Below, one piece after another: positions 1 to 64,000 of a DNA stretch of 64,000 bases. The position numbers and the translations under genes were made by a program. The stretch lies in NCBI GenBank assembly GCA_947172415.1, contig OX359194.1, positions 62,001-126,000 on the forward strand. Direction: 5' to 3'. How positions within the stretch are numbered: the first letter of the stretch is position 1; every line of letters begins with the position of its first letter. This DNA comes from Chondrosia reniformis. Taxonomy: Eukaryota > Porifera > Demospongiae > Chondrillida > Chondrillidae. Below the pieces are notes generated by a model, which saw only the letters and a list, made by a program, of their open reading frames with translations, made no database searches and had not been told where the DNA came from.

Positions 1-190
1 GTCCATAAAAATCTGTGAAATCGTTCTACTTTTTCAGATATATATACATATACACTGCAAGTACGAAATTTATTACTCTAGGTCGGCCATTTATAGTATT
101 ACGCAATTATGAAACTCTACATTTAATACCACAAATGAACATATATCAAGCTGAAACAGCATTCACAGACATCCATAAAACATATCCAAA
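1..190 (+). repeat. Inner end of an inverted-repeat arm (truncated by window edge)
   Basis: This stretch is nearly identical to the inner end of the arm around 4060-4250. It shows that a second copy of the arm-plus-array unit lies to the left of the window. It runs directly into satellite monomers. No gene is seen. Confidence 0.85.
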
Positions 191-3000
191 GAGTTCTGCA
201 AATTTTGATGTTCATTCATATTTGCCCTACGTAGATATAGTACCATACATTAAATTTAAATGGCAGAATCTAATGTACATTAAATTCTGCAACTCATTCA
301 AATGGACAGATATCAAGCTGAAACTTGGTGTCAGCATTCACAGACATCCATAAACCATTTCTAAAGCGTTTTGCAAATTTTGATGTTCACTCATATTTGC
401 CCTACGTATATCTCACCATACATTACCAGAATCTAATGTACATTTAATGTTCCAGCTCATTCAAATGGACAAATATCAAGCTGAAACTTGGTGTCAGCAT
501 TCACAGACATCCATAAACCATTTCCAAAGCGTTTTGCAAATTTTGATGTTCACTCATATTTGCCCTATATCTCACCATACATTTACTTTGTATACCAGAA
601 TCTAATGTACATTTAATGCTCCAGCTCATTCAAATGGACAAATATCAAGCTGAAACTTGGTCAAAGCATTCACAGACATCCATAAACTATTTCCAAAGCG
701 TTTTGCAAATTTTGATATTCACTCATATTTGCTCTATATCTCACCATACATTTACTTTGTATACCAGAATCTAATGTACATTTAATGCTCCAGCTCATTC
801 AAATGGACAAATATCAAGCTGAAACTTGGTGTCAGCATTCACAGACATCCATAAACCATTTCCAAAGAGTTTTGCAAATTTTGATGTTCACTCATATTTG
901 CCCTACGTATATCTCACCATACATTACCAGAATCTAATGTACATTTAATGTTGCAGCTCATTCAAATGGACAAATATCAAGCTGAAACTTGGTCACAGCA
1001 TTCACCAACATCCATAAACCATATCCAAAGAGTTTTGCAAATTTTGATGTTCACTCATATTTGCCCTATATCTCACCATACATTTACTTTGTATACCAGA
1101 ATCTAATGTACATTTAATGCTCCAACTCATTCAAATGGACAGATATTAAGCTGAAAATTGTTCCCAGCATTCACCGACATCCATAAACACTATCCAAAGA
1201 GTTTTTACAAATTTTGATGTTCACTCATATTTGCCCTATATATATCTCACCATACATTAACTTTGTATACCAGAATCTAATGTACATTTAATGCTCCAAC
1301 TCATTCAAATGGACAGATATTAAGCTGAAAATTGTTCCCAGCATTCACCGACATCCATAAACAATATCCAAAGAGTTTTTACAAATTTTGATGTTCACTC
1401 ATATTTGCCCTACGTATATCTCACCATACATTTACTTTGTATACCAGAATCTAATGTACATTTAATGCTCCAGCTCATTCAAATGGACAAATATCAAGCT
1501 GAAACTTGGTCAAAGCATTCACAGACATCCATAAACCATTTCCAAAGCGTTTTGCAAATTTTGATATTCACTCATATTTGCTCTATATCTCACCATACAT
1601 TTACTTTGTATACCAGAATCTAATGTACATTTAATACTCCAGCTCATTCAAATGGACAAATATCAAGCTGAAACTTGGTGTCAGCATTCACAGACATCCA
1701 TAAACCATTTCCAAAGAGTTTTGCAAATTTTGATGTTCACTCATATTTGCCCTACGTATATCTCACCATACATTACCAGAATCTAATGTACATTTAATGT
1801 TGCAGCTCATTCAAATGGACAAATATCAAGCTGAAACTTGGTCACAGCATTCACCAACATCCATAAACCATATCCAAAGAGTTTTGCAAATTTTGATGTT
1901 CACTCATATTTGCCCTATATCTCACCATACATTTACTTTGTATACCAGAATCTAATGTACATTTAATGCTCCAACTCATTCAAATGGACAGATATTAAGC
2001 TGAAAATTGTTCCCAGCATTCACCGACATCCATAAACACTATCCAAAGAGTTTTTACAAATTTTGATGTTCACTCATATTTGCCCTATATCTCACCATAC
2101 ATTAACTTTGTATACCAGAATCTAATGTACATTTAATGCTCCAACTCATTCAAATGGACAGATATTAAGCTGAAAATTGTTCCCAGCATTCACCGACATC
2201 CATAAACAATATCCAAAGAGTTTTTACAAATTTTGATGTTCACTCATATTTGCCCTACGTATATCTCACCATACATTTACTTTGTATACCAGAATCTAAT
2301 GTACATTTAATGCTCCAGCTCATTCAAATGGACAAATATCAAGCTGAAACTTGGTCAAAGCATTCACAGACATCCATAAACCATTTCCAAAGCGTTTTGC
2401 AAATTTTGATATTCACTCATATTTGCCCTATATCTCACCATACATTTACTTTGTATACCAGAATCTAATGTACATTTAATACTCCAACTCATTCAAATGG
2501 ACAAATATCAAGCTGAAATTTGGTCACAGCATTCACAGACATCCATAAACCATTTCCAAAGCGTTTTGCAAATTTTGATGTTCGCTCATATTTGCTCTAT
2601 ATCTCCCCATACATTAACTTTGTATACCAGAATCTAATGTACATTTAATGCTCCAACTCATTCAAATGGACAGATATCAAGCTGAAACTTGTTCACAGCA
2701 TTCACCGACATCCATAAACCATTTCCAAAGAGTTTTTACAAATTTTGATGTTCACTCATATTTGCCCTATATTTCACCATACATTTACTTTGTATACCAG
2801 AATCTAATGTACATTTAATGCTCCAGCTCATTCAAATGGACAAATATCAAGCTGAAAACTTGGTGTCAGCATTCACAGACATCCATAAACCATTTCCAAA
2901 GAGTTTTGAAAATTTTGATGTTCACTCATATTTGCCCTATATCTCACCATACGTACATTAACTTTGTATACCAGAATCTAATGTACATTTAATGCTAGAA
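190..3000 (+). repeat. Satellite array A, ~165-170 bp monomers
   Basis: About 17 tandem monomers are present, each with the landmarks TTTTGATGTTCACTCATATT, CTCACCATACATT and CAGAATCTAATGTACATTTAA. A higher-order period of about 845 bp (five monomers) is visible: the stretch near 660 recurs almost unchanged near 1505 and 2352. Short open frames are by-products of the repeat. The array ends at the outer end of an inverted-repeat arm. Confidence 0.92.
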
Positions 3001-4190
3001 CTTGGTTAAATGGATAATGGAGATAAACTCATTGGACAAGCTTTTATGGATGCCTATGAAAGCTGACACCAAGTTTAAGCATATTTGCCTATTTGCAGAG
3101 TTACAGCACTAAAGTATATACGAATTTATGAAGTAAAGAATATTTATAATTTTATATCGTGCGATACTTTCATACAAAAATATCGGAATACCTCAAAAAG
3201 TTTTTACATGCTTAGACTAGAAAGACACAAAACAGTCCAAAATACAGCTATCAGAAGGTATCTATATATAAATAGGTAGCCATCATCCTTTTACAGCACT
3301 TGAAATTGAGTGTGGCTGGTTATAGTGTTAAACGTTGATATCGGAACTCCTCTCGCTAAAATCGTTTCTACATGGGACCAGAAAAGCTGCTCTCCTCGGC
3401 CTATGAAGTGGCACACAGGGTTTTATCCATTTTTCTCAGTTTGGAGACGAACCACAAATACTGAATATAGGTGTAAAATTGCTTGAAACGATGCGTTGAT
3501 CTGTAATTACCTTGAAATAATTGGACTATATTTTCTCGCAAATACCCTATTCTTAAGTATGGAAATGCGCCAACCACAACCGTTTTCTTCCTAAATTTTG
3601 TTGTTTAAATAGGAGCGAAAAACCTTATAAAGTAGGCCTACCTGGACACATCTCTATGGTGGTAGCGGTTCCCATAGAGGTTGGTAGTGCTTAGACTCTG
3701 AAGCTGTCTCCTAATCGGTTGGTGCCATAGAGACGTGCTCACCAATAATCCGGATTTCGGGGGGGTTCCACGTAATGTGGGATTGGCATCTGATATCTTA
3801 GGATTCATATGAGTCGGCCATATCGAGAAGAACTGGTTCTTCTCACGCAAGTGACACCCAAAGCTCAACTCGGCAGAGCGTTACCACCGATCCCGGCCTC
3901 TGAGCGTCGTGGATGGTAGCGTTCGGTGTGGTCCAACTTTTTTTCTTTGGAGTTTCGTTGGCTATCGATTGGTGAAATTTGACTTTAACGACATTAATAA
4001 AATATATATGGATAGATACTACTTCAACAAAAATCAAGTACTACTGAGTGAATATCCATGTCCATAAAAATCTGTGAAATCGTTCTACTTTTTCAGATAT
4101 ATATACATATACACTGCAAGTACGAAATTTATTACTCTAGGTCGGCCATTTATAGTATTACGCAATTATGAAACTCTACATTTAATACCA
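2915..4190 (+). repeat. Left arm of a ~1.2-kb inverted repeat
   Basis: This arm is the reverse complement of 7217-8497 with few differences, for example the segments at 3085-3120 and 8310-8345. The outer ~85 bp is satellite sequence, so the palindrome is embedded in the satellite. Both arms contain short open frames (3638-4037 minus, 7350-7679 plus). The frames have no motif I recognise and differ by indels between arms, so I do not call a gene. The two arms bracket array B, giving a composite unit of ~5.6 kb. Confidence 0.88.
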
Positions 4191-7100
4191 CAAATGAACA
4201 TATATCAAGCTGAAACAGCATTCACAGACATCCATAAAACATATCCAAAGAGTTCTGCAAATTTTGATGTTCATTCATATTTGCCCTACGTAGATATAGT
4301 ACCATACATTAAATTTAAATGGCAGAATCTAATGTACATTAAATTCTGCAACTCATTCAAATGGACAGATATCAAGCTGAAACTTGTGCACAGCATTCCC
4401 AGGCATCCATAAACCATATCCTAAGATTTTGCAACTTTTGATGTTCATTCATATTTGCCTTATATCTCTCCATACATTAACTTTGTATACCAGAATCTAA
4501 TGTACATTTAATGCTCCAACTCATTCAAATGGACAGATATTAAGCTGAAACTTGGTCACAGCATTCACAGACATCCATAAACCATATACAAAGCGTTTTT
4601 CAAATTTTGATGTTCATTCATATTTGCCCTATATCTCACCATACATTAACTTTGTATACCAGAATTTAATGTACATTTAATGCTCCAGCTCATTCAAATG
4701 GACAGATATTAAACTGAAACGTGGTCACAGCATTCACCGACATCCATAAAACCATATCCAGAGAGTTTTGCAAATTTTGATGTTCACTCATATTTGTCCA
4801 ATATCTCACCATACATTAACTTTGTATACCAGAATCTAATGTACATTTAATGCTCCAACTCATTCAAATGAACAGATATCTACCTGAAACTTGGTCACAG
4901 CATTCACCAACATCCATAAACCATGCATATCCAAAGAGTTTTGCAAATTTTGATGTTCACTCATTGCCATATATCTCACCATACATTTACTTTGTATACC
5001 AGAATCTAATGTACATTTAATGCTCCAACTCATTCAAATGGACAGATATCAAGCTGAAACTTGGTCACAGCATTCACCAACATCCTTAAACCATATCCAA
5101 AGAGTTTTGCAAATTTTGATGTTCACTCATATTTGCCCTATATCTCACCATACATTTACTTTATATACAAGAATCTAATGTACATTTAATGCTCCAACTC
5201 ATTCAAATGGACAGATATTAAGCTGAAACTTGTTCACAGCATTTACAGAAATCCGTAAAACATATCCAAAGAGTATTGCAATTTTTGATGTTCACTCATA
5301 TTTGCCCTATATCTCACCATACATTAACTTTGTATACCAGAATCTAATGTACATTTAATGCTCCAACTCATTCAAATGAACAGATATCTACCTGAAACTT
5401 GGTCACAGCATTCACCAACATCCATAAACCATATCCAAAGAGTTTTGCAAATTTTGATGTTCACTCATTGCCATATATCTCACCATACATTTACTTTGTA
5501 TACCAGAATCTAATGTACATTTAATGCTCCAACTCATTCAAATGGACAGATATCAAGCTGAAACTTGGTCACAGCATTCACCAACATCCACAAACCATAT
5601 CCAAAGAGTTTTGCAAATTTTGATGTTCACTCATATTTGTCCTATGTCTCACCATACATTTACTATGTATACCAGAATCTAATGTACATTTAATGCTCCA
5701 ACTCATGCAAATGGACAGATATTAAGCTGAAACTTGGTCACAGCATTCACCAACATCCTTAAACCATATCCAAAGAGTTTTGCAAATTTTGATGTTCACT
5801 CATATTTGCCCTATATCTCACCATACATTAACTTTGTATACCAGAATCTAATGTACATTTAATGCTCCAACTCATTCAAATGGACAAATATCAAGCTGAA
5901 ACTTGGTGTCAGCATTCACAGACATCCATAAACCATTTCCACAGCGTTTTGCAAATTTTGATGTTCACTCATATTTGTCCAATATCTCACCATACATTAA
6001 CTTTGTATACCAGAATCTAATGTACATTTAATGCTCCAACTCATTCAAATGAACAGATATCTACCTGAAACTTGGTCACAGCATTCACCAACATCCACAA
6101 ACCATATCCAAAGAGTTTTGCAAATTTTGATGTTCACTCATATTTGTCCTATGTCTCACCATACATTAACTTTGTATACCAGAATCTAATGTACATTTAA
6201 TGCTCCAACTCATGCAAATGGACAGATATTAAGCTGAAACTTGGTCACAGCATTCACCAACATCCTTAAACCATATCCAAAGAGTTTTGCAAATTTTGAT
6301 GTTCACTCATATTTGCCTTATATCTCACCATACATAAACTTTGTATACCAGAATCTAATGTACATTTAATGCTCCAACTCATTCAAATAGACAAATATCA
6401 AGCTGAAACTTGGTGTCAGCATTCACAGACATCCATAAACCATTTCCACAGCGTTTTGCAAATTTTGATGTTCATTCATATTTGCCCTATATCTCACCAT
6501 ACATTAACTTTGTATACCAGAATCTAATGTACATTTAATGCTCCAGCTCATTCAAATGGACAAATATCAAGCTGAAACTTGGTCAAAGCATTCACAGACA
6601 TCCATAAACCATTTCCAAAGCATTTTGGAAATTTTGATATTCACTCATATATGCTCTATATCTCACCATACATTAACTTTGTATACAAGAATCTAATGTA
6701 CATTTAATGCTCCAACTCATTCAAATGGACAGATATCAAGCTGAAACTTGTTCACAGCATTTACAGAAATCCGTAAAACATATCCAGAGAGTTTTGCAAT
6801 TTTTGATGTTCACTCATATTTGCCCAACGTATATCTCACCATACATTAACTTTGTATACCAGAATCTAATGTACATTTAATGCTCCAACTCATTCAAATA
6901 GACAAATATCAAGCTGAAACTTGGTGTCAGCATTCACAGACATCCAAAAACCATTTCCAAAGCGTTTTGCAAATTTTGATATTTGCCCTATATCTCACCA
7001 TACATTAACTTTGTATACCACAATCTAATGTACATTTAATGTTCCAGCTCATTCAAATGGACAGATATCAAGCTGAAACTTGGTCACAGCATTCACAGAC

Positions 7101-7217
7101 AACCGTAAAACATATCCAAAGAGTTTTGTTAATTTTGATGTTTACTCATGTTTTGTTAATTTTGATGTTTACTCATATTTGCCTTATATCTCACCATACA
7201 TTGTATAATACTTAATA
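4190..7217 (+). repeat. Satellite array B between the inverted arms
   Basis: About 18 monomers of the same family and orientation as array A, somewhat more diverged from one another (several monomers start with CAACATCC instead of CAGACATCC). It fills the space between the two inverted arms. Near 7130-7170 the last monomer is scrambled by a short internal duplication just before the right arm. Confidence 0.92.
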
Positions 7218-50949: not shown

Positions 50950-53900
50950 CTAATGTCCTCGATCTGGCACTCGCTCTCTAACAGGAAGGAAGGTGAGAAT
51001 TTATAATTTAACCAGATCTTTTAAAGTTCCATGACACTCTGTAGAGTTTACAAATTAAGGGCCAGCCAAGTGTGTTGAGGTCAACCTTACCTCGGAGCAG
51101 ATTTTAAAATGTTGTCGACTCGAAGGATCATTTCTGCTGCTTCCGCAGCATACAGAAGAACTTTACTCTTAACTTTGTAAGCTTCTGTTACACACAACCT
51201 CTCCATACTCCCAACTTTACCATTGTTCATATCTGGAGGAAGGAGAGGTCACATGATCATCATGTGACCATGCATTGGACTACATTCTATTAACTGCCCA
51301 ATGAAATCACGTGACAGTCACACCATTACCTAATCCAGCAGTCTTGTCACCCTTTGCATGAGCTGCCCTCAAATTGGCGATGAGCTCTGAGCTGTCATAA
51401 CCAGCATTGTCAGCAATTATGGTTGGCAACTATAAACGTAGAACAGACACTCAAGTACTACTGCAGTCCCAATATTAGGGTACAGTATCACTCCAGTAAA
51501 GTGAGTATCGCAGTGAGAGTGATGTCAGTTGTGAAGTGGACCTACCATTGAGAGAGCTCTAGCAAAGGACTCTATTGCTAGTGCCTCCTTTCCTGCAGTT
51601 TTGGTAGCAAGCTGGTGCACCGCGTCTGCCATCAGCATCTCACTGCATCCTGACAGAGGGTAGGGGAGGGGAACCAGGGTAAGAGGGGTGGAGCAGATCC
51701 AGAGGGGGAGAGGAGGGGAACCAGGGTAAGATCCAGAGGGGAGGGGAGGGGAACCAGGGTAAGATCCAGAGGGGGAGGGGAGGGGAACCAGGGTAAGATC
51801 CAGAGGGGAGAGGAGGGGAACCAGGGTAAGATCCAGAGGGGAGGGGAGGGGAACCAGGGTAAGATCCAGAGGGGAGGGGAGGGGAACCAGGGTAAGATCC
51901 AGAGGGGGAGAGGAGGGGAACCAGGGTAAGATCCAGAGGGGAGGGGAGGGGAACCAGGGTAAGAGGGGTGGAGCAGATCCAGAGGGGGAGAGGAGGGGAA
52001 CCAGGGTAAGATCCAGAGGGGAGGGGAGGGGAACCAGGGTAAGATCCAGAGGGGAGAGGAGGGGAACCAGGGTAAGATCCAGAGGGGAGGGGAGGGGAAC
52101 CAGGGTAAGATCCAGAGGGGAGGGGAGGGGAACCAGGGTAAGATCCAGAGGGGGAGAGGAGGGGAACCAGGGTAAGATCCAGAGGGGAGGGGAGGGGAAC
52201 CAGGGTAAGATCCAGAGGGGAGGGGAGGGGAACCAGGGTAAGATCCAGAGGGGAGGGGAGGGGAACCAGGGTAAGATCCAGAGGGGAGAGGAGGGGAACC
52301 AGGGTAAGATCCAGAGGGGAGGGGAGGGGAACCAGGGTAAGATCCAGAGGGGGAGGGGAGGGGAACCAGGGTAAGATCCAGAGGGGAGGGGAGGGGAACC
52401 AGGGTAAGATCCAGAGGGGGAGGGGAGGGGAACCAGGGTAAGATCCAGAGGGGAGGGGAGGGGAACCAGGGTAAGATCCAGAGGGGGAGGGGAGGATCCA
52501 GAGGGGGAGGGGGAAGTTGATTCATATGGAAGAAAGTGCATATTTGAGTGAGTGGTGGGTTTGGCTAAAGGAGTGGAATGGAGGACTTGCCTCCTCCATA
52601 TACTGTTCTGGCATCAGTGACTGTTTGCTGTAACACGGCTAGTGCATCATGAAGTGACCTCTCCGCCTCATCCAAGATCTGCTGTGTAGCTCCTCTGAGC
52701 ACAATAGTACATGCTTCTCCACCAGCACACCCTGAAACAAACACTTGTGGTTAGAATAGTATCAGACCTGCTTGATAAGAAACCTTACCAGAAAATCGTA
52801 TAAGCTTGTCCTCCCCAATGAGGACTTGTTCAATGAGCTTACAGCGACCCAATCTTACCTTCTCCGGGTCACCAAACGTACTCACTATCTCACCATCTAC
52901 ATTCAAAGGGGAGGGGCTAGTGGGTGTGGTCAATAGAAGGTCAAGTGGGTGTGGTCAATAGAAGGTCAAGTGGGTGTGGTCAATAGAAGGTCAAGTGGGT
53001 GTGGTCAATAGAAGGTCAAGTGGGTGTGGTCAATAGAAGGTCAAGTGGGTGTGGTCAATAGAAGGTCAAGTGGGTGTGGTCAATAGAAGGTCAAGTGGGT
53101 GTGGTCAATTTGCTATCCATTACTCACCAAGAACTAGACCCAGTCGTTCAATTCCCTCAAAGTCAGCATGCTCAATGGCCATCACTTTGGCATCGGCAAA
53201 CAGCTGCTCTGGGTAGTTGTAGATGAGCTGACGATTAATGAAGCAACTGATATTGTGTTTCAAGATCAAGTCGACCTTGTCCTTCATTTTCTCCTGAATA
53301 CACATGAGATTTGTAACAAAAAGAAATCCACTTTGGATCTACATATCCAGCTACAGCCAGCTACAGATTACGACATAAAGAACTTGTTAAACTGACCTTT
53401 TCTGCTTGCTCAATCTCGGCCAGTTTGGCGGTGGATTGAACTCTGACCTTTGACCCAAAGACTTTGATCTTGTCGTGGTCCATGGCAGTGTTAGCCAACA
53501 AGATCTTGGCGTCAGTTATCCGCTGCGGCTGGTACACGCCAACTGACTTCTCCAGTAAGAATCCTACACACACACAAGTACATCTGATAACCCATAACAT
53601 AATTAATACGTAGCATGAAAGATGTCACAAGTGCTGTACATGAGTGGAATTGCTCTACCAGAAGTTACTGCTAACTATAGCGTGTAGGGAGGTTAATCAT
53701 ACGGAGGTTCAGCGATTGTACACACACGCACACGCATGTATTCACAGAGTAGAGGATGGAAGGAGGACTTGGTTGAGAGGGGCAGCAGATGTACTGAAGA
53801 GCTGACCTTCCTCAAGATAAGAGTCACTGAGATTTCCTCCTAGCTTCTTTATGACTTGAATGGCCTCCAGTTTTCCAGACCCTTTTAGCCTCAAAATGGC

Positions 53901-55045
53901 TTCCACAGCAAGATTGGCAAAGAGGTCCCTGAATAAGAAATGAGCCAATCAGATTCAGACTTGTCTTCATACACTGGATATACACTTTGTAAAACTCTGT
54001 ATAACTCTGTAAAACTCTGTATAACATGATTACTGATCTCCTAACCTATGTTGAGTGAGTATCTTTGAGCTCAATGTGGTCCGAGCAATGTTCAGCAAAT
54101 CCTCTCTGAACTTGACCAGATTAGAACTACATTCAGTACAAGTGGAGCATCACGGCGCAGACATGTTAGAACATCACTGATATAAGCATATAACAGATTC
54201 AATACAGTTGCCATGGTTACAGCAAAACACAGCCACAAGACACATTCACAACACATCATGCAACAAACCTATTATCTTTAGTGACTGCAGTTAGAGCATC
54301 TCTTGCGCAATCGGTGGCCAATCTCCAACCAGCTATGATGGTCTGTGGGTGGAGCTTCCTAGCCACTAGTGACTCCGCCTCCCTCAACAGCTCAGCAGCC
54401 AACACTACAACAGAAGTAGTGCCATCACCTACTTCAGCATCTTGTACCTTGGAAATATCTACAAGGGGAGGGGCAAGAGGCGTGACCGGGGAGGGCGTGG
54501 CAATGACATGGGGGGTGTGGCACATACCAACAAGTATTTTAGCAGCGGGGTTATCAATTCCAATGCTCTTCAAGATGGTGGCTCCATCGTTAGTGACCTC
54601 CATTTTGTTGCCACCTCCCGGGGCTGTACTGAGGAGAATCTTATCCTGTACACGAATACATTGAAATGTGTTCAATAATTCTATTCTGCAGTCTGACACC
54701 GTCTGCCACTTCTAGTATATTCCAGTATATTCTAGTAAACTTACCATTCCTTTGGGTCCGAGTGTAGACTTGACTAGATCTCCAACAGCTATGGCTCCTA
54801 CAAAGGAGGACTACAAAACCAGACCGGACAAATATTAACACGAACATGTTCTAGTGCTGTACTTCAGCTCAACTCGCTAACCATTCTAGCGGTCTCTGCT
54901 TTCTCTTCATCAGCCCCTCGCTTGAATATATCCACCGGGTTCAACCGCACCATCGCCTTTCAAAACGCGAGAGACGTACAAACGACGTAAATGACATTAT
55001 AAGCCAAATAGATTCGCTCTTACAATTCTGTATACCACTTACCAT
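50950..55045 (-). CDS. CCT2: Chaperonin TRiC/CCT subunit beta
   Basis: Subunit of the cytosolic ATP-dependent chaperonin that folds actin, tubulin and others. Fifteen exons (55045-55043, 54956-54882, 54810-54745, 54645-54528, 54458-54269, 54126-54046, 53928-53807, 53563-53397, 53293-53128, 52896-52789, 52731-52591, 51649-51546, 51429-51330, 51232-51091, 50977-50950) give 536 aa, against 535 in human. Landmarks are colinear with human CCT2: [135 protein letters not shown] and the tail RERVPDRGH. The first coding exon is the ATG alone. The exon 52731-52591 donor is GC (G|GCAAGT). The 941-bp intron after it is filled by a minisatellite. The promoter and first exon are duplicated upstream. Confidence 0.96.
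51657..52512 (-). repeat. ~34-bp minisatellite in CCT2
   Basis: About 25 copies of GGGGAACCAGGGTAAGATCC plus AGAGGGGAGGGGAG. The array lies 8 bp from the acceptor of exon 51649-51546 and is pyrimidine-rich on the gene's sense strand. The spurious open frames of ~300 codons across it are repeat artefacts. Confidence 0.96.
52920..53110 (+). repeat. 25-bp minisatellite (TCAAGTGGGTGTGGTCAATA)
   Basis: Eight nearly perfect copies fill the CCT2 intron between exons 53128-53293 and 52789-52896. Confidence 0.96.
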
Positions 55046-55310
55046 TGCTGAAGAAAATTCGCTCTTTCTAGAATTGGAAAATTAGCATGCACGTGGTATC
55101 ATTTGATAAGTAAACCACAACTATTTCTGTAAACGGTCTACTATTTTATACATGAGAAATTAAACTGCAAGACTAAATGTACACTAAATTATGTATGCTG
55201 AAGGGGTTACAAGATGGCAGTGCTAGTGCTTCCAACAGTCACTAGCAAATCTGGAAAAAGTAACAAACATCATGTGACAAGGAGAAGTGGCATACTTATA
55301 TACAAACTTA
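55046..55310 (-). promoter_or_regulatory. CCT2 promoter region
   Basis: Sequence upstream of the one-codon first exon. The stretch to about 55127 is preserved in the duplicate at 55449-55642, including GAAAGAGCGAATTTTCTTCA-type sequence around the start. No TATA box is convincing at a standard position. No gene is seen in 55128-55310. Confidence 0.45.
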
Positions 55311-55448
55311 AGTGTATGGTGAGATATAGGGCAAATATGAGTGAACGTCAAAATTTGCAAAACTCTTTGAATAGGTCTTATATATGGATGTCTGTGAATG
55401 CTGTGACCAAGTTTCAGCTTGATATCTGTCCATTTGAATGAGTTGCAG
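55311..55448 (-). repeat. Solitary, inverted satellite monomer
   Basis: GTATGGTGAGATATAGGGCA ... CTTGATATCTGTCCATTTGA is the reverse complement of one monomer of the 1-8.5 kb satellite, ~47 kb away. It ends exactly where the duplicated CCT2 sequence begins. Confidence 0.93.
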
Positions 55449-55957: not shown

Positions 55958-58900
55958 TTACCTACAGATCTTAAGTAACTTGCACTCTATCTTTTGAGAA
56001 AGACAGCCATAGCCGCTTTTACAAAGGGCCCTCAGTACTGATATCCATTTTCCTAGAATAAGAAAAATTGCTATACTTAGTCTTAATTATATTTGGATTC
56101 CAACAAAACCTGAAGTTGCTGTTGCCTAAAATACTCAAAACTAATGCTAACCCGACATACTTTCTTTATTGATCAGCCAGTCCTTTGTTTCCTCAAAGCA
56201 AACTTCAGCTTTATTTTTTGCTATTGCTTGAATAAACTCAGTTCTAATACCAAGATGCTCTCCAAACCTTTCCCAATTAAAATACCCTAGTTCACATAGC
56301 CACTCTGACAGCATTGGCTCAGGGTTAGGATTCTCTCCTGCATTAATGTGAAATGTATACTCTTACTATAAAAAGTAGCTAGATGTTACATATTATTATA
56401 TTATACTTTACCTGCACTTTTCAGTTTATCTTGTAATTTCTTGGACATCTCTAAATGATACACTTTCCAGATAGCTGCTAAAAGTGTCCCCCATTGACGA
56501 GGTTTAGCTGACAAAAGATCAAGTATAAGAGTATACATACAGTACATATTAACATTTAAAATTACAAACCTTCTTTTGTATTATCGTTCAACCATTTTTC
56601 TATCATGTCTTTGAATGCTTTTTGCGTTATGTCACTTCTCTGCTCCTCTTGGGTGCTCTCACTTCTCTGCTCCTCTTGGGTGCTCTCACTTCTCTGCTCC
56701 TCTTGGGTGCTCTCACTTCTCTGCTCCTCTTGGGTGCTCTCACTTCTCTGCTCTTCTTGGGTGCTCCCACTTCCCTGCTCTTCTTGGGTACTCCCACTTT
56801 TCTGCTCTTTATACAAACATTTTCTGAATTCCTTTATATCATCTAAACCATAGTCAAGGCTTTCAACCAAGTACCATGCTTCCTCTGAAGATAGCCGGGA
56901 GAATTTGCCTATTCATTAGAACATCAATGAAATCACTGTCTGTGCTTTGGTTTATGAGTGCGTGCAGGACTTATATGCTGTGTTCCTAGGACAGCATGAA
57001 TTTGGATTTGGGTTCATATTTTAACTGGGAAGCCTTTAGCCTGAAGGCTACTCTTCCAGTGAACATGTACGTACACAATGTCATACACAATTAGTAAATC
57101 AGCTAATAATCAGTCAGTACTCAGTCTGGTGTTGATGCTATTTATGTATATTCGTACCTTCAAACTTGCTCTGAAGCACTGCTTTAGTATATACTTGAGC
57201 AAAATCATCTTCTAATGCTAGATCTGGTTTAATATTCTTATAAACACCAAATACAGTGCTCCATTGATGATTGCCTTCTAGTAAGTAAGTAACACAATTT
57301 TATATATGCAGTAAAATTGTACAGTAATACTTGTATAATTGCTTCAATGCCATGGCATAATGAAAAGACAACTGTACAACTTAGAAAAATTACCTGTTTC
57401 TAACCATTTGTTCATTACTTCCTTGTGGCATTGTTTGTTGTTTTCTAGTACTTCTAACTTTCTCCCGAGTTCTTCACAATTAAGAGCTCGTATATAAGAG
57501 CATACTTCATCCACAGATGATTTAGACAGCTCAACTAACATAAATGATGAGATTAACGATATAGCAGCTCCTATGAACTATATGATATGACATAGTGAGT
57601 GAGTATATAATTTATACATTGACCTACATTGACCTACGTAGCTACAAATACAACTGGATTGAACTGCATTTTATATTGATGACATACAAAAACTAATTAC
57701 TAAACAAGGCTTTGACATGCATACATATGCTTGCTTGTTGGAAACAATTTCAATCTCATCACCTATCAAAACAGCCATGATATAAGTTGTTTATATTCTA
57801 ATGTTAGTTACATGAAGGGTAGTCTTTTTAGTGGCAATGTGATGCATTACTTATGTATGTACTGTACCTTCAAAGTTCCTTTTCTTTACTGCTTCAGAAA
57901 GTATTTTAGCCAAGTCATCTTCAGATACTTTATCTTTTGCCATTTTCTCCAAGGCTTTTACTGCCGAGTCCCACATCAGACCTTGATTAAAGACAATATC
58001 GTGTGCATGTGTTGTGCATGAATACAATCTGCTATATTGTGATTTGCTCTATAGTATGGTTACCCTTACATATTAAGTATGTATTCTAATCTATACATAT
58101 TTAATACTGTATATGTTCATATGTCATTCGGCATGCAAGGTTCCTTCTCCCACAGAGCTTTTACAAGGATACTCTACAGTACACAAGTATAGTGTGTATA
58201 TAATACCTGCATTTGTAGTCCAGGACGCTCTTGTACTGTAAGGTCCTCGTCCATCTGATGAAAAAGCTGCTACCCAAATGAAGTATTCTATACCTTGTTC
58301 AAGTCTACTCAGTTTAGTTGATGTACCAGCAATTCTTTCCACTGTTGATGCTTCAGATGGTGGTTCTGTTATAGTACCACTACTTGTTGAATACCTCACA
58401 GTGTAGGTTATTCCAGATTCATCAGATACTGCAGCCCAAGAAACTGTCAAAGACAGAGATCCATCTGATACACCGCTTATAGTGACATCTTGGACTTGAG
58501 GAAGAACTATGGAAGTATAGTACAGTTCCAGAAAATAAAATGTAATAACTTCAATTTTATATAATATATAGGTGAGCCAATACTGTGTGTATAGTCATCT
58601 GAAAAAAAAATGATTTCAATTTTCATAGTATATACAATAGATATTAGGTGTGATACACAGCTTTGAGCACAGTGATCCTTTTACAAGGATACTCTACAGT
58701 ACACAAGTATAGTGTGTATACAATACCTGCATTTGTAGTCCAGGACGCTATTGTACTGTAAGGTCCTTGTCCATCTGATGAAACAGCTGCTACCCAAATG
58801 TAGTACACTGTACCTTGTTTAAGTCTACTCAGTTTAGTTGATGTACCAGTGATTCCTTCCACTGTTGATGCTCCAGATGGTGGTTCTGTTATAGTACCAC

Positions 58901-61900
58901 TACTTGTTGAATACCTCACAGTGTAGGTTATTCCAGATTCATCAGATACTGCAGTCCAAGAAACTGTCAAAGACAGAGATCCATCTGATACACCGCTTAT
59001 AGTGACATCTTGGACTTGAGGAAGAACTATATGGAAGTATAGTACAGTTCCAGAAAATAAAATGTAATAACTTCAATTTTATATAATATATAGGTGAGCC
59101 AATACTGTGTGTATAGTCATCTGAAAAAAAAATGATTTCAATTTTCATAGTATATACAATAGATATTAGGTGTGATACACAGCTTTGAGCACAGTGATCC
59201 TTTTACAAGGATACTCTACAGTACACAAGTATAGTGTGTATACAATACCTGCATTTGTAGTCCAGGACGCTATTGTACTGTAAGGTCCTTGTCCATCTGA
59301 TGAAACAGCTGCTACCCAAATGTAGTACACTGTACCTTGTTTAAGTCTACTCAGTTTAGTTGATGTACCAGTGATTCCTTCCACTGTTGATGCTCCAGAT
59401 GGTGGTTCTGTTATAGTACCACTACTTGTTGAATACCACACAGTGTAGGTTATTCCAGATTTATCAGATACTGCAGTCCAAGAAACTGTCAAAGACAGAG
59501 ATCCATCTGATACACCGCTTATAGTGACATCTTGGACTTGAGGAAGAACTATGGAAGTATAGTACAGTTCCAGAAAATAAAATGTAATAACTTCAATTTT
59601 ATATAATATATAGGTGAGCCAATACTGTGTGTATAGTCATCTGAAAAAAAAATGATTTCAATTTTCATAGTATATACAATAGATATTAGGTGTGATACAC
59701 AGCTTTGAGCACAGTGATCCTTTTACAAGGATACTCTACAGTACACAAGTATAGTGTGTATACAATACCTGCATTTGTAGTCCAGGACGCTATTGTACTG
59801 TAAGGTCCTTGTCCATCTGATGAAACAGCTGCTACCCAAATGTAGTACACTGTACCTTGTTTAAGTCTACTCAGTTTAGTTGATGTACCAGTGATTCCTT
59901 CCACTGTTGATGCTCCAGATGGTGGTTCTGTTATAGTACCACTACTTGTTGAATACCTCACAGTGTAGGTTATTCCAGATTCATCAGATACTGCAGTCCA
60001 AGAAACTGTCAAAGACAGAGATCCATCTGATACACCGCTTATAGTGACATCTTGGACTTGAGGAAGAACTATATGGAAGTATAGTACAGTTCCAGAAAAT
60101 AAAATGTAATAACTTCAATTTTATATAATATATAGGTGAGCCAATACTGTGTGTATAGTCATCTGAAAAAAAAATGATTTCAATTTTCATAGTATATACA
60201 ATAGATATTAGGTGTGATACACAGCTTTGAGCACAGTGATCCTTTTACAAGGATACTCTACAGTACACAAGTATAGTGTGTATACAATACCTGCATTTGT
60301 AGTCCAGGACGCTATTGTACTGTAAGGTCCTTGTCCATCTGATGAAACAGCTGCTACCCAAATGTAGTACACTGTACCTTGTTTAAGTCTACTCAGTTTA
60401 GTTGATGTACCAGTGATTCCTTCCACTGTTGATGCTCCAGATGGTGGTTCTGTTATAGTACCACTACTTGTTGAATACCTCACAGTGTAGGTTATTCCAG
60501 ATTCATCAGATACTGCAGTCCAAGAAACTGTCAAAGACAGAGATCCATCTGATACACCGCTTATAGTGACATCTTGGACTTGAGGAAGAACTATATGGAA
60601 GTATAGTACAGTTCCAGAAAATAAAATGTAATAACTTCAATTTTATATAATATATAGGTGAGCCAATACTGTGTGTATAGTCATCTGAAAAAAAAATGAT
60701 TTCAATTTTCATAGTATATACAATAGATATTAGGTGTGATACACAGCTTTGAGCACAGTGATCCTTTTACAAGGATACTCTACAGTACACAAGTATAGTG
60801 TGTATACAATACCTGCATTTGTAGTCCAGGACGCTATTGTACTGTAAGGTCCTTGTCCATCTGATGAAACAGCTGCTACCCAAATGTAGTACACTGTACC
60901 TTGTTTAAGTCTACTCAGTTTAGTTGATGTACCAGTGATTCCTTCCACTGTTGATGCTCCAGATGGTGGTTCTGTTATAGCACCACTACTTGTTGAATAC
61001 CTCACAGTGTAGGTTATTCCAGATTTATCAGATACTGCAGCCCAAGAAACTGTCAAAGACAGAGATCCATCTGATACACCGCTTATAGTGACATCTTGGA
61101 CTTGAGGAAGAACTATGGAAGTATAGTACAGTTCCAGAAAATAAAATGTAATAACTTCAATTTTATATAATATATAGGTGAGCCAATACTGTGTGTATAG
61201 TCATCTGAAAAAAAATGATTTCAATTTTCATAGTATATACAATAGATATTAGGTGTGATACACAGCTTTGAGCACAGTGATCCTTTTACAAGGATACTCT
61301 ACAGTACACAAGTATAGTGTGTATACAATACCTGCATTTGTAGTCCAGGACGCTATTGTACTGTAAGGTCCTTGTCCATCTGATGAAACAGCTGCTACCC
61401 AAATGTAGTACACTGTACCTTGTTTAAGTCTACTCAGTTTAGTTGATGTACCAGTGATTCCTTCCACTGTTGATGCTCCAGATGGTGGTTCTGTTATAGT
61501 ACCACTACTTGTTGAATACCACACAGTGTAGGTTATTCCAGATTTATCAGATACTGCAGCCCAAGAAACTGTCAAAGACAGAGATCCATCTGATACACCT
61601 CTTCGAACAGTGATACCTTGGACTTGAGGTAGAAATATGGAAGTATAGTATAGTTCCAGAAAATAAAATGTGATAAATTCCATTTTATATTAGGTGAGCC
61701 AATACTGTGTATAGTCATCTGAAAAATGGTTTCAATTTTCATAGTATATAAAATAGATGTTAGGCATCATTAAGTTCACAAATCACACTATTTCATAAAT
61801 TATGGGAGTCAGTCAGATAATGGGTAGAAAATAGCTTTATATATTGAAAGTTGATTAGAACTTTAAAGTGGAATTAATCCCCAGGGGGCATTTCTCTATA

Positions 61901-64000
61901 GCCCTGAAAGATCCTATACACTTAAGAAGATAAAATCAAAACTGACATGGTGTAAACATTAAATATCAAAACATTGATATCAAAAGAAATGACATTGTAA
62001 AAATATCTACAAATAATATAGACAGGCCTTCTAATTACCTTACCATTACTCAACCAAATCTGTGTCAACATTTCTAAACATTCCTTAATTTCTATGTTTT
62101 CTTTTTCCTTCAGTGATGCTTGGTCAATACCAAGATGTTTTCCAAACATCTTCCAATCCAAGCACACGTGCTCCTTAATTTCAGACCATATCTCTTCTTG
62201 TTCCCCTATCTGCATATCTTCAAGGTTTTTAAATTTATCTTCAAAACCAAGAAGCCTAGCTAGAAAAGCAAATAAAGTAGACTCCACTTGCATTGGTCAT
62301 CACAATTCTTCATTCTTTCAACTTTGTAGTGGCCTAATTACATATAGCTATATACTATGTAAGAATACATTAGTGTCGGTATAGGTAAATATTGGTTAAA
62401 AGAATGTGAGATGAAGTTTAAGGTGTCAGGTATCAATGTGCATCAAAAGATTGCAGATGTGGGCATTCAATTCCTGATATACGTACAGTAATATGTGTCA
62501 AAAGTAACTTACAGTTTTCCGCAAAATTCCGCACGTATTTTTACGGAATATCCGTGTACGTCTGCACTCCTATCCGCAATTACCCGCACTGCTTTCTGCA
62601 GCTACGGGCGTTATATACCTTTATAAAAGGTCATCTTTCGACTTTTAGAGCGTCTAAAGACACAGTTTTTATTGCTTCTTCTTGCTGTGTGACGCTCTAA
62701 AAGTCGAAAGATGACCCTTTCTAAAGATAAGTTTGACGCAGTTAGAAGAAATCCTTACGTACGTACGTACTAGTGCAGATTTCCGCGGACGGCTGTGTAG
62801 AATTCTGTAAAAGTCCGTACAGGCAACTGCGGTTTACAGCATCCGTGGTTTCCAGGAAACTGCGGAAAACTGTAAGTTACTTTTGACTTGTACTGTACAT
62901 GTCTATAGTGCAATAATATGCACGATTACCTTCATTCTCTTTCAATAACAAATCTAATTTGACCTCATCTTTATGAGCTGTTTCAGCACATTTTTTGAGG
63001 GTTTTGTGTACAATTGCCCAATTTTGTTTTTTGTCTGCAGACAAATATATAAATACAATAAAAACCATAAATTGTGCTACACAATTAATAGTTTTGTACC
63101 ATATTAGGCATTTAAACCTAAAAATAGATGTTTGCCACCCACACATTGACTGTGTCATGTTGGTATGCATTAAAATAATTTACCAGGCTTAGATGTACTG
63201 GTCCAGACTTTTATAGCTTCATTAAACTGTTCTTCTGTTAATTCTTTATTTGATGTGGCTGAAACGTTGGTGCCTTGCAAGGTTTCCAAAAAATATGTCC
63301 TGTCTAAGTCAGATGACTTGACTAATGAACAAATGTCTTTAGCTTCTGGTTCACATCTTGAAACTACAGTGATTAAGTAATTGAAAAATTATGAAAAACA
63401 TTATTATAGCATTAATTTAAAGTGACAAATCATATAATACTATGACACTGCATTAATTTTACCCTTTTCTTTAAAATTCTTCAAATTTTTTATATAGCTT
63501 TTTATTTCCTTCTGGAGGTCGTTTCTCAGCTCATGGACTTTGTTACTTGAATAAAGGACCAATGGTGTCACTATACCATTAGTAATTACTTGGATGCTTT
63601 CGTTAGATTCTTTTTTTTTTGAAATGTTTAGTTGTACATTAGAGGCTATACCACTTAGGCTACAGGGGAGTTCCCGTAAAGATTCCAAAAGTTGATTCAA
63701 AAAAAGGCCATACGGAGAGGGACTGTCCTTTGTAGACTTTCCCACTTTGGATGTGTGATAGGGTAGACAAGAGTATACAAAACAACAGCTTTCACCATCT
63801 GGTATCACTAGCTTTTCCTTTTCTCTAGGGGGGTTATCTACTGATCTGCAGGCTCCCAAAAAGAAAAGTTTTATTACATTTTTACCCAAGACATCACAAA
63901 AAGGCTCAACAACATCAAATCTAAGGTTAATGTGTTGGTTCTGTTCATATCCAATAGTATCATTGTGCAAATACTCTCCAGCTCCATGTCCATTGAACAC
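55958..64000 (-). CDS. Caspase-like protease with death domains and seven FN3 domains (5' end beyond window)
   Basis: Nineteen exons give 1,379 aa within the window; every internal intron is phase 1. Exon 64000-63463 encodes the C-terminal part of a caspase-fold peptidase. FNGHGAGEY holds the catalytic His, and FFLGACRS holds the Cys 46 residues later, the usual caspase spacing. A YGLFLNQLLESL segment resembles a p10 region. Next comes a death-like domain (63363-63184, 63034-62930), then a death-domain front half (62259-62044: DWKMFGKHLGIDQASL...MLTQIWLSNG). Seven FN3 exons follow (61622-58207), then a death-domain back half (57981-57868: GLMWDSAVKALEKMA), and three more split death domains (57534/57277; 56908/56507; 56337/56052). 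The last ends LRALCKSGYGCLSQKIE, then a stop. An apoptosis or immune-signalling role is inferred. It could be two genes, but phases and splice sites fit one. Confidence 0.8.
56635..56806 (-). repeat. Coding 27-bp minisatellite (STQEEQRSE) inside a death domain
   Basis: Six in-frame copies lie in exon 56908-56570, between the first helices (WYLVESLDYGLDDIKEF) and the later helix (FKDMIEKWLNDN) of one death-like domain. They insert a charged ~55-residue loop. Confidence 0.93.
58207..61622 (-). repeat. Seven tandem FN3 exon units, ~520 bp period
   Basis: Exons 61622-61332, 61100-60813, 60578-60291, 60056-59769, 59536-59249, 59014-58727 and 58494-58207 each encode one fibronectin type III domain (SLTVSWTAVSDESGITYTVR, STKLSRLKQGTVYYIWVAAV). 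All are phase 1-1. The intervening introns are as similar as the exons, so whole 520-522-bp units were copied recently or homogenised. The first and last units are the most diverged. Confidence 0.95.
62497..62887. mobile_element. MITE-like element with 27-bp terminal inverted repeats
   Basis: The ends GTCAAAAGTAACTTACAGTT... and the reverse complement of ...AACTGTAAGTTACTTTTGAC match for 27 bp. Inside, 62629-62654 and 62691-62716 form a perfect 26-bp hairpin (GGTCATCTTTCGACTTTTAG...). It lies in the intron between caspase-gene exons 63034-62930 and 62259-62044. Related hairpins are at 14446-14573 and 50551. Confidence 0.85.

Follow-up and report, generated by a model that had tools for sequence, protein, structure and literature searches.

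The question raised by this locus of the sponge Chondrosia reniformis is whether a caspase-like protease, a row of death-like domains and seven FN3 domains belong to a single gene, and what else such a gene would contain. The locus lies at one end of the window, that is, the whole stretch of 64,000 nucleotides (nt) under analysis (contig 6, or C6, bases 62001-126000), and was followed beyond the window edge in fetched upstream DNA (L006, whose position x is window position 63000+x). The assembly searched comprises 117,379,552 bases in 15 contigs; the genome note gives 14 chromosomes and a mitochondrion (PMC12181767). The reading that we favor, and that we hold to be about evenly balanced between right and wrong, is one gene coding in order for a CARD-like exon, a PPQKE repeat, an exon called E4, a ROC-COR-like GTPase, a caspase and several consecutive death-like domains, the second of which encloses seven FN3 domains, the product working as proposed below.

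The gene model was built from the DNA sequence alone, its exons and transcript being predictions. From the caspase exon (CASP) to the last exon (D5b), all 17 introns are GT..AG and phase 1 on the minus strand in a splice-border check, and the join stays open as far as the TAA at 55958. The in-phase exon chain of the original prediction is thereby borne out, as is its unusual linkage of a caspase to FN3 and death-like exons. The CASP exon starts outside the window, however, and the model extends 6.3 kb past the window edge, where seven further exons (E1-E7) were found on the same strand and in the same frame. The protease had been placed at the N-terminal side, which holds inside the window only: the seven upstream exons move it to the center of the modeled protein (residues 1325-1605 of 2805), and the proposed layout of a caspase followed by other domains has to be given up, as in-frame exons ahead of the caspase code for a CARD-like part and a ROC-COR-like GTPase. 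On the minus strand, the modeled gene covers about 14.4 kb between its ATG and its stop, with 25 coding exons, and the full join has a single terminal stop and is otherwise free of stops and frame shifts. Since 23 of its 24 introns are in phase 1 (the E5-E6 intron is phase 0), we infer that the gene was assembled through exon shuffling. Its parts, in exon order and in window numbering continued past the edge, are the following.

70342-70030, minus strand: E1, CARD-like exon, holds the first ATG
69841-69209, minus strand: E2, PPQKE repeat exon
68865-68767, minus strand: E3
68594-68454, minus strand: E4, putative death-type half-exon without a partner half
68306-65632, minus strand: E5, ROC-COR-like exon of 2,675 nt
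65565-65490, minus strand: E6
65426-65391, minus strand: E7
63463-64000 within the window, continuing to 64305 (L006:1305), minus strand: CASP, caspase exon
63184-63363, minus strand: D1a, first half-exon of putative death-like domain 1 (splice borders and phase)
62930-63034, minus strand: D1b, second half-exon of putative death-like domain 1 (splice borders and phase)
62044-62259, minus strand: D2a, first half of death-like domain 2, resembles D5a
58207-61622, minus strand: FN3 array, seven exons (FN1-FN7) lying in the phase-1 intron that separates D2a from D2b
61622-61332, 61100-60813, 60578-60291, 60056-59769, 59536-59249, 59014-58727 and 58494-58207, minus strand: the FN3 exons
57868-57981, minus strand: D2b, second half of death-like domain 2, resembles D3b
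57394-57534, minus strand: D3a, putative half-exon (splice borders and phase)
57158-57277, minus strand: D3b, putative half-exon (splice borders and phase), resembles D2b
56570-56908, minus strand: D4a, putative half-exon with a coding 27-nt minisatellite (STQEEQRSE)
56412-56507, minus strand: D4b, putative half-exon, resembles D5b
56161-56337, minus strand: D5a, first half of death-like domain 5, marginal Pfam Death match
55958-56052, minus strand: D5b, final exon, closes with TAA (splice borders and phase)

Coding minisatellites run in frame in E2 (PPQKE), E5 (SGSEHGGSEP) and D4a (STQEEQRSE). PPQNV frames adjoin two other caspases (L032 and L036).

Do the two sides of the E7-CASP junction belong together? 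The CASP exon has a phase-1 acceptor and, unlike most of the aligned caspase paralogs, no in-frame Met ahead of the caspase core. A duplicate of E1-E7 on C3, 87-97% identical in its main DNA blocks, keeps E6 and E7 (48 nt there, 36 nt here) as well as the GT donor after E7, and it keeps the frame through indels in both exons. With this donor retained in the duplicate as well as here, splicing probably continues beyond E7. Several observations speak against a single gene, however. The duplicate ends in the E7-CASP intron without reaching a caspase; within sequence that the C3 copy conserves, there is an AATAAA at 65279 (112 nt beyond the end of E7), where a ROC-COR transcript might terminate. 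C7 shows the arrangement of a ROC-COR-like frame followed by a caspase, but apparently as separate genes: the caspase has an ATG of its own, and the ROC-COR frame runs into a stop, with an AATAAA some 250 nt later. The alternative would be two neighboring genes of the same direction, one with the CARD-like and ROC-COR-like parts, ending after E7, and one with the caspase, death-like and FN3 parts, starting at a short exon in the 1.1-kb gap. The AATAAA at 65279 and the C7 arrangement would fit it; the 1,085-nt gap offers one possible ATG mini-exon (65233-65200, under a loose donor rule), seven of the eight aligned caspase paralogs have their own Met shortly before the core, and the exception, L037, means that the absence of a Met alone is no proof. 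The Met-less CASP exon with its phase-1 acceptor and the donor kept after E7 in both copies argue the other way, and we find two genes doubtful. A joined ROC-COR and caspase query retrieved 23 proteins; query coverage was 72% or less in all of them, so no second fusion was seen, an absence that carries little weight if the database holds mainly unspliced frames, as its matches suggest. In the C3 duplicate (C3:1058463-1068700; L042, L041, L070), an insert of about 350 nt with a 99-residue frame follows directly after E7; on C7, a 544-residue open frame that looks COR-type by eye follows the caspase (C7:384090-385721, L034/L072).

The same data bear on the possibility that the locus is decaying and unexpressed. 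Repeat growth inside E2, E5 and D4a and the putative half-domain E4, which has no partner, would be in line with decay, but 25 modeled exons without stop or frame shift, and a C3 duplicate that stays in frame through the E6 and E7 indels, make it very improbable.

What, then, precedes the caspase in the single gene that we favor? With the ROC-COR model, Foldseek gave 13 matches at E≤0.001, all of them LRRK1, LRRK2 or prokaryotic Roco proteins, and a 13-member family profile has the LRRK2 Roc domain as its first match (E 0.001). The core residues of what we take to be the GTPase motifs G1, G3 and G4 are invariant in all 13 aligned family members. On the negative side, E5 reaches 15.7 bits with Pfam Roc (cut-off 27), the best of five scanned ROC-COR-like frames stays below both cut-offs (Roc 21.3 bits; COR-A 14.5 against 35.3), and the ROC-COR structure model is poor (predicted local distance difference test, pLDDT, 54.3). 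We speak of a 'ROC-COR-like' exon because the Roc and COR profile scores lie under the cut-offs, and the GTPase activity of E5 is putative, fold likeness alone not establishing it.

Likewise, E1 is termed 'CARD-like' because no CARD score above cut-off supports it: E1 itself does not match Pfam CARD (PF00619), and its distant relative L033 obtains 17.1 bits (cut-off 23.9). It is thus a candidate, not a proven CARD. At least five matches of the E1 family overlap sub-cut-off CARD matches by coordinates (compared by eye). The family itself, with 150 matches scored of 332 candidates, many more than 50% identical and on many contigs, appears to be a large lineage-specific one. NCBIfam gave no useful name for the parts searched.

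In the caspase exon, the predicted motif with a His-Cys spacing of 46 is present (H94 and C140, numbering of the trimmed exon). The untrimmed exon had no match in Pfam and no useful one in the PDB; trimming and a family profile gave the caspase matches that it had missed. The trimmed exon scores 37.2 bits with Pfam Peptidase_C14 (PF00656), above the cut-off of 21.4, and its structure model shows a caspase fold and is good around much of the core. Foldseek and VIA-align 2 both returned caspase-fold matches, so that the caspase reading of the exon is supported. MALT1 combines a death domain and Ig beta-sandwich domains with a caspase-fold protease, and had been named as the closest known protein. 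The likeness holds for death-type and beta-sandwich domains accompanying a caspase fold, and a MALT1 chain does rank first in Foldseek, but tied with procaspase-7. VIA-align 2 places procaspases in its top rows, and all 60 listed of the 131 PDB sequence matches are caspase-3, -6 or -7. Moreover, MALT1 differs in domain order and has Ig domains instead of FN3. It is not clearly the closest known protein.

Whether this domain cuts, and after which residue, is a separate matter. Its protease activity is putative, as fold likeness alone does not establish it. Opposite the caspase-7 pocket Gln and Arg, at positions that we assume to form the S1 pocket for Asp at P1, the HMMER alignment places Gly138 and Val175, the third pocket residue falling outside the alignment. 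These replacements would be in keeping with a catalytically dead scaffold or with a protease of non-caspase, paracaspase-like preference, as would the acidic residues that four of nine family members have two positions ahead of the Cys. On the other hand, the catalytic His and Cys are kept in all nine aligned members, and much of the core lies in well-modeled parts of the fold, so a dead domain or a changed specificity seems to us rather unlikely. The nine come from 11 genome matches, query included, after two truncated C3 matches were excluded, one of which has a Tyr in the His place (by eye). Paralog L030 keeps the Arg at the pocket column. In protein searches, the single caspase sequence matched only itself, and the caspase profile matched seven proteins: six look identical by eye to frames of this genome, and the seventh (P0006) is a close relative of L030. 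Apparent ordinary CARD-caspase genes, with adjoining CARD and C14 matches, lie elsewhere in the genome (C3:7302395-7303732 and C2:1728999-1730204).

Downstream of the caspase, the 'about five death-like domains' of the original prediction correspond to five pairs of half-exons (D1-D5). That number stands, the domain identity less so: with Pfam Death (PF00531, cut-off 22.6), D2 reaches 14.0 bits (E 0.059) and D5 13.5 bits (E 0.08), both below cut-off, and D1, D3 and D4 have no match. The label 'death-like' is used because the scores of D1-D5 are below cut-off or absent; for D1, D3 and D4 it is read from the exon pattern alone. The D2a+D2b match spans the joint (residues 30-90 of 110), and neither D2a nor D2b matches by itself. 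Likeness between half-exons exceeds that of all 300 shuffles for D2a-D5a (z 6.7), D2b-D3b (z 9.8) and D4b-D5b (z 5.0), that is, for 1 of 10 pairs among the a half-exons and 2 of 15 among the b half-exons and E4. We also made a local death-domain profile from ten sequences of this genome, three seeds included, in which native pairs score at most 7.3 bits. Shuffled second halves reach the native score in 210 (D1), 3 (D2), 199 (D3), 89 (D4) and 25 (D5) of 500 cases, and shuffled whole pairs in 4, 1, 50, 0 and 5 of 500, respectively. Counting against the row as drawn are the marginal Pfam support for only two of the five domains, the 13.8 bits of the mixed pair D2a+D3b, close to the 14.0 of D2a+D2b, and four non-native pairs at 10.5-13.5 bits in the local profile, above every native pair. 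Because non-native pairs outscore native ones, this profile cannot prove the pairing of half-exons. Genome-wide, 150 death-domain matches were scored of 220 candidates, all above the Pfam cut-off and some with an internal stop.

The seven FN3 domains of the original prediction are confirmed as seven units spaced by 519-522 nt. One copy scores 41.7 bits with Pfam fn3 (PF00041, cut-off 25, E 1.4e-10), and the other six are 87-97% identical to it. What had gone unnoticed is that the array stands between D2a and D2b, parting the two halves of death-like domain 2. It is a very recent tandem array, its six internal introns (I1-I6) having zero substitutions and at most 1-3 gap positions. How did it get there? 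The FN3 exon has 606 candidate genome matches at E≤1e-6, of which 150 were scored, its own seven copies included; most of the scored ones are on this chromosome (by eye). DNA matches outside the array mostly stop near the FN3 exon borders, except at C6:325970-326436 and 331387-331856, where the flanking intron matches too (87% in the exon part, 81-82% in the intron part). The closest near-full-unit relatives of the array lie about 200 kb away, and this C6 cluster, on the same chromosome and strand, is its probable source. Most likely, an FN3 block entered the intron of the death-like domain by intron-intron recombination and then multiplied. Variable FN3 columns comprise 18 nonsynonymous and 2 synonymous ones (P 0.03-0.06, depending on the assumed transition bias). 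FN1-private differences are at the 5' end and FN7-private ones in the 3' half, as expected at array edges; because they sit where array edges predict them, positive selection on FN3 is at most hinted at.

All FN3 exons are symmetric (phase 1-1) and can therefore be skipped without a frame shift. Hence the array might be an intronic passenger that is normally skipped, D2a being joined to D2b, and that is rarely or never translated. Its position exactly between the two halves, a Pfam Death match that arises only across their joint, and the youth of the array (I1-I6 without substitutions) all agree with this; nor was a signal-peptide or membrane exon noticed beside the array, although no systematic search for one was made. 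Conversely, each of the seven exons is an open frame in the right phase and has its splice sites, and FN1, in which the ATAG of the other copies reads ATAT, retains the CTCAAG acceptor modeled for all seven. We regard a passenger array as a credible possibility, with somewhat less than an even chance.

How would the protein of our single-gene reading work? In familiar animal death pathways, the nucleotide switch and the caspase are carried by different proteins, which come together in an assembly; proximity is what activates initiator caspases, and death folds assemble. In the mechanism that we propose, the caspase would be monomeric and inactive at rest. GTP-dependent dimerization through ROC-COR, alongside assembly of the CARD-like and death-like parts, would bring caspase domains together and activate them, as happens to initiator caspases on apoptosomes and inflammasomes. 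With switch and protease on one chain, the protein could turn on its own protease. The FN3 cassette may serve as a spacer between the two ends of the chain; alternatively, skipping it would restore an unbroken death-like domain and act as a splice-controlled switch. A scaffold-protease role in death or immune signaling, which the original prediction had advanced, would be our inference too. Roco proteins couple nucleotide state to dimerization, with conflicting models (PMC6320773). A stronger proposal, which strikes us as unlikely, is a one-chain animal death machine in which a CARD-like recruiter, a GTP switch and an initiator-type caspase form the counterpart of bacterial ROC-COR-caspase proteins, splicing of the imported FN3 cassette assembles or breaks the death-like domain, and FN3 copy number varies within the species.

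Bacteria provide a precedent: their AP-GTPase(ROC)-COR conflict proteins carry variable C-terminal effectors, caspase being among at least 24 domains there, and adaptor domains (EADs) also occupy the C-terminal position (PMC8195603, Kaur et al. 2021). This precedent makes the proposed mechanism more plausible and narrows the claim of novelty. The order of GTPase switch, COR and effector is shared; however, the bacterial proteins start with leucine-rich repeats, whereas the sponge gene starts with a CARD-like exon and continues after the caspase with the death-like/FN3 row. Among animal proteins, DAPK1 has ROC-COR and a death domain on one chain according to two Roco reviews (PMC6337361, PMC6320773), neither of which uses the word 'caspase' in its main text. 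The sponge gene shares this pairing with DAPK1 and metazoan Roco proteins, but a caspase takes the place of the kinase, and it has CARD-like and FN3 parts in addition. The actiniarian novel gene NG3, ascribed to domain shuffling (PMC5094078), likewise combines Roc/COR with a death domain in an immune-type protein that is specific to its lineage; the domains that accompany these are kinase, TIR and SH3, and not a caspase. Amphioxus has caspases with novel domain layouts (PMC3196919). Like these and initiator caspases, the sponge gene joins a His/Cys-dyad caspase and death-fold domains on one chain; unlike them, it has death-like parts after the caspase and a GTPase before it.

Sponges themselves offer parallels. 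Amphimedon has a species-specific expansion of Death-like/TRADD-N proteins whose effectors include caspase, neither ROC-COR nor FN3 being listed for this set (PMC8195603). Dysidea avara has 128 DEATH genes, and the legend of a figure on its NLRs names CASc and COR without stating the gene assignment (PMC12909245). The present locus resembles both sets in being a lineage-specific sponge Death-like protein with variable effectors that include caspase, and differs in that neither TRADD-N nor NACHT was recognized in its gene model. It fits the theme of lineage-specific expansions of Death-like, caspase and Roc-COR proteins. In the open-access literature searched, titles and abstract beginnings named no animal ROC-COR-caspase fusion, and no description of a death-like domain split by FN3 was found. 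If the proposed reading is true, a chain with switch and caspase would be a natural single-protein version of such assemblies, useful for testing induced proximity, and an animal gene would come close to a bacterial defense design. The FN3 insertion offers a very recent example of exon shuffling that can still be read and for which a source cluster is probable.

Further elements were noticed around the gene. Exons at window 53100-54950 on the minus strand resemble what we take to be chaperonin CCT2, and the open frame there reads through a possible intron of about 69 nt. The upstream neighbors are presumably TTBK-type kinase and catalase look-alikes (L006:9170 to L007:1190 and L007:5700-7800). 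At the far end of the window, a 169-nt satellite forms an array in two blocks of about 17 copies each (156-7153), and a diverged copy of its unit is seen by eye near 55300-55400.

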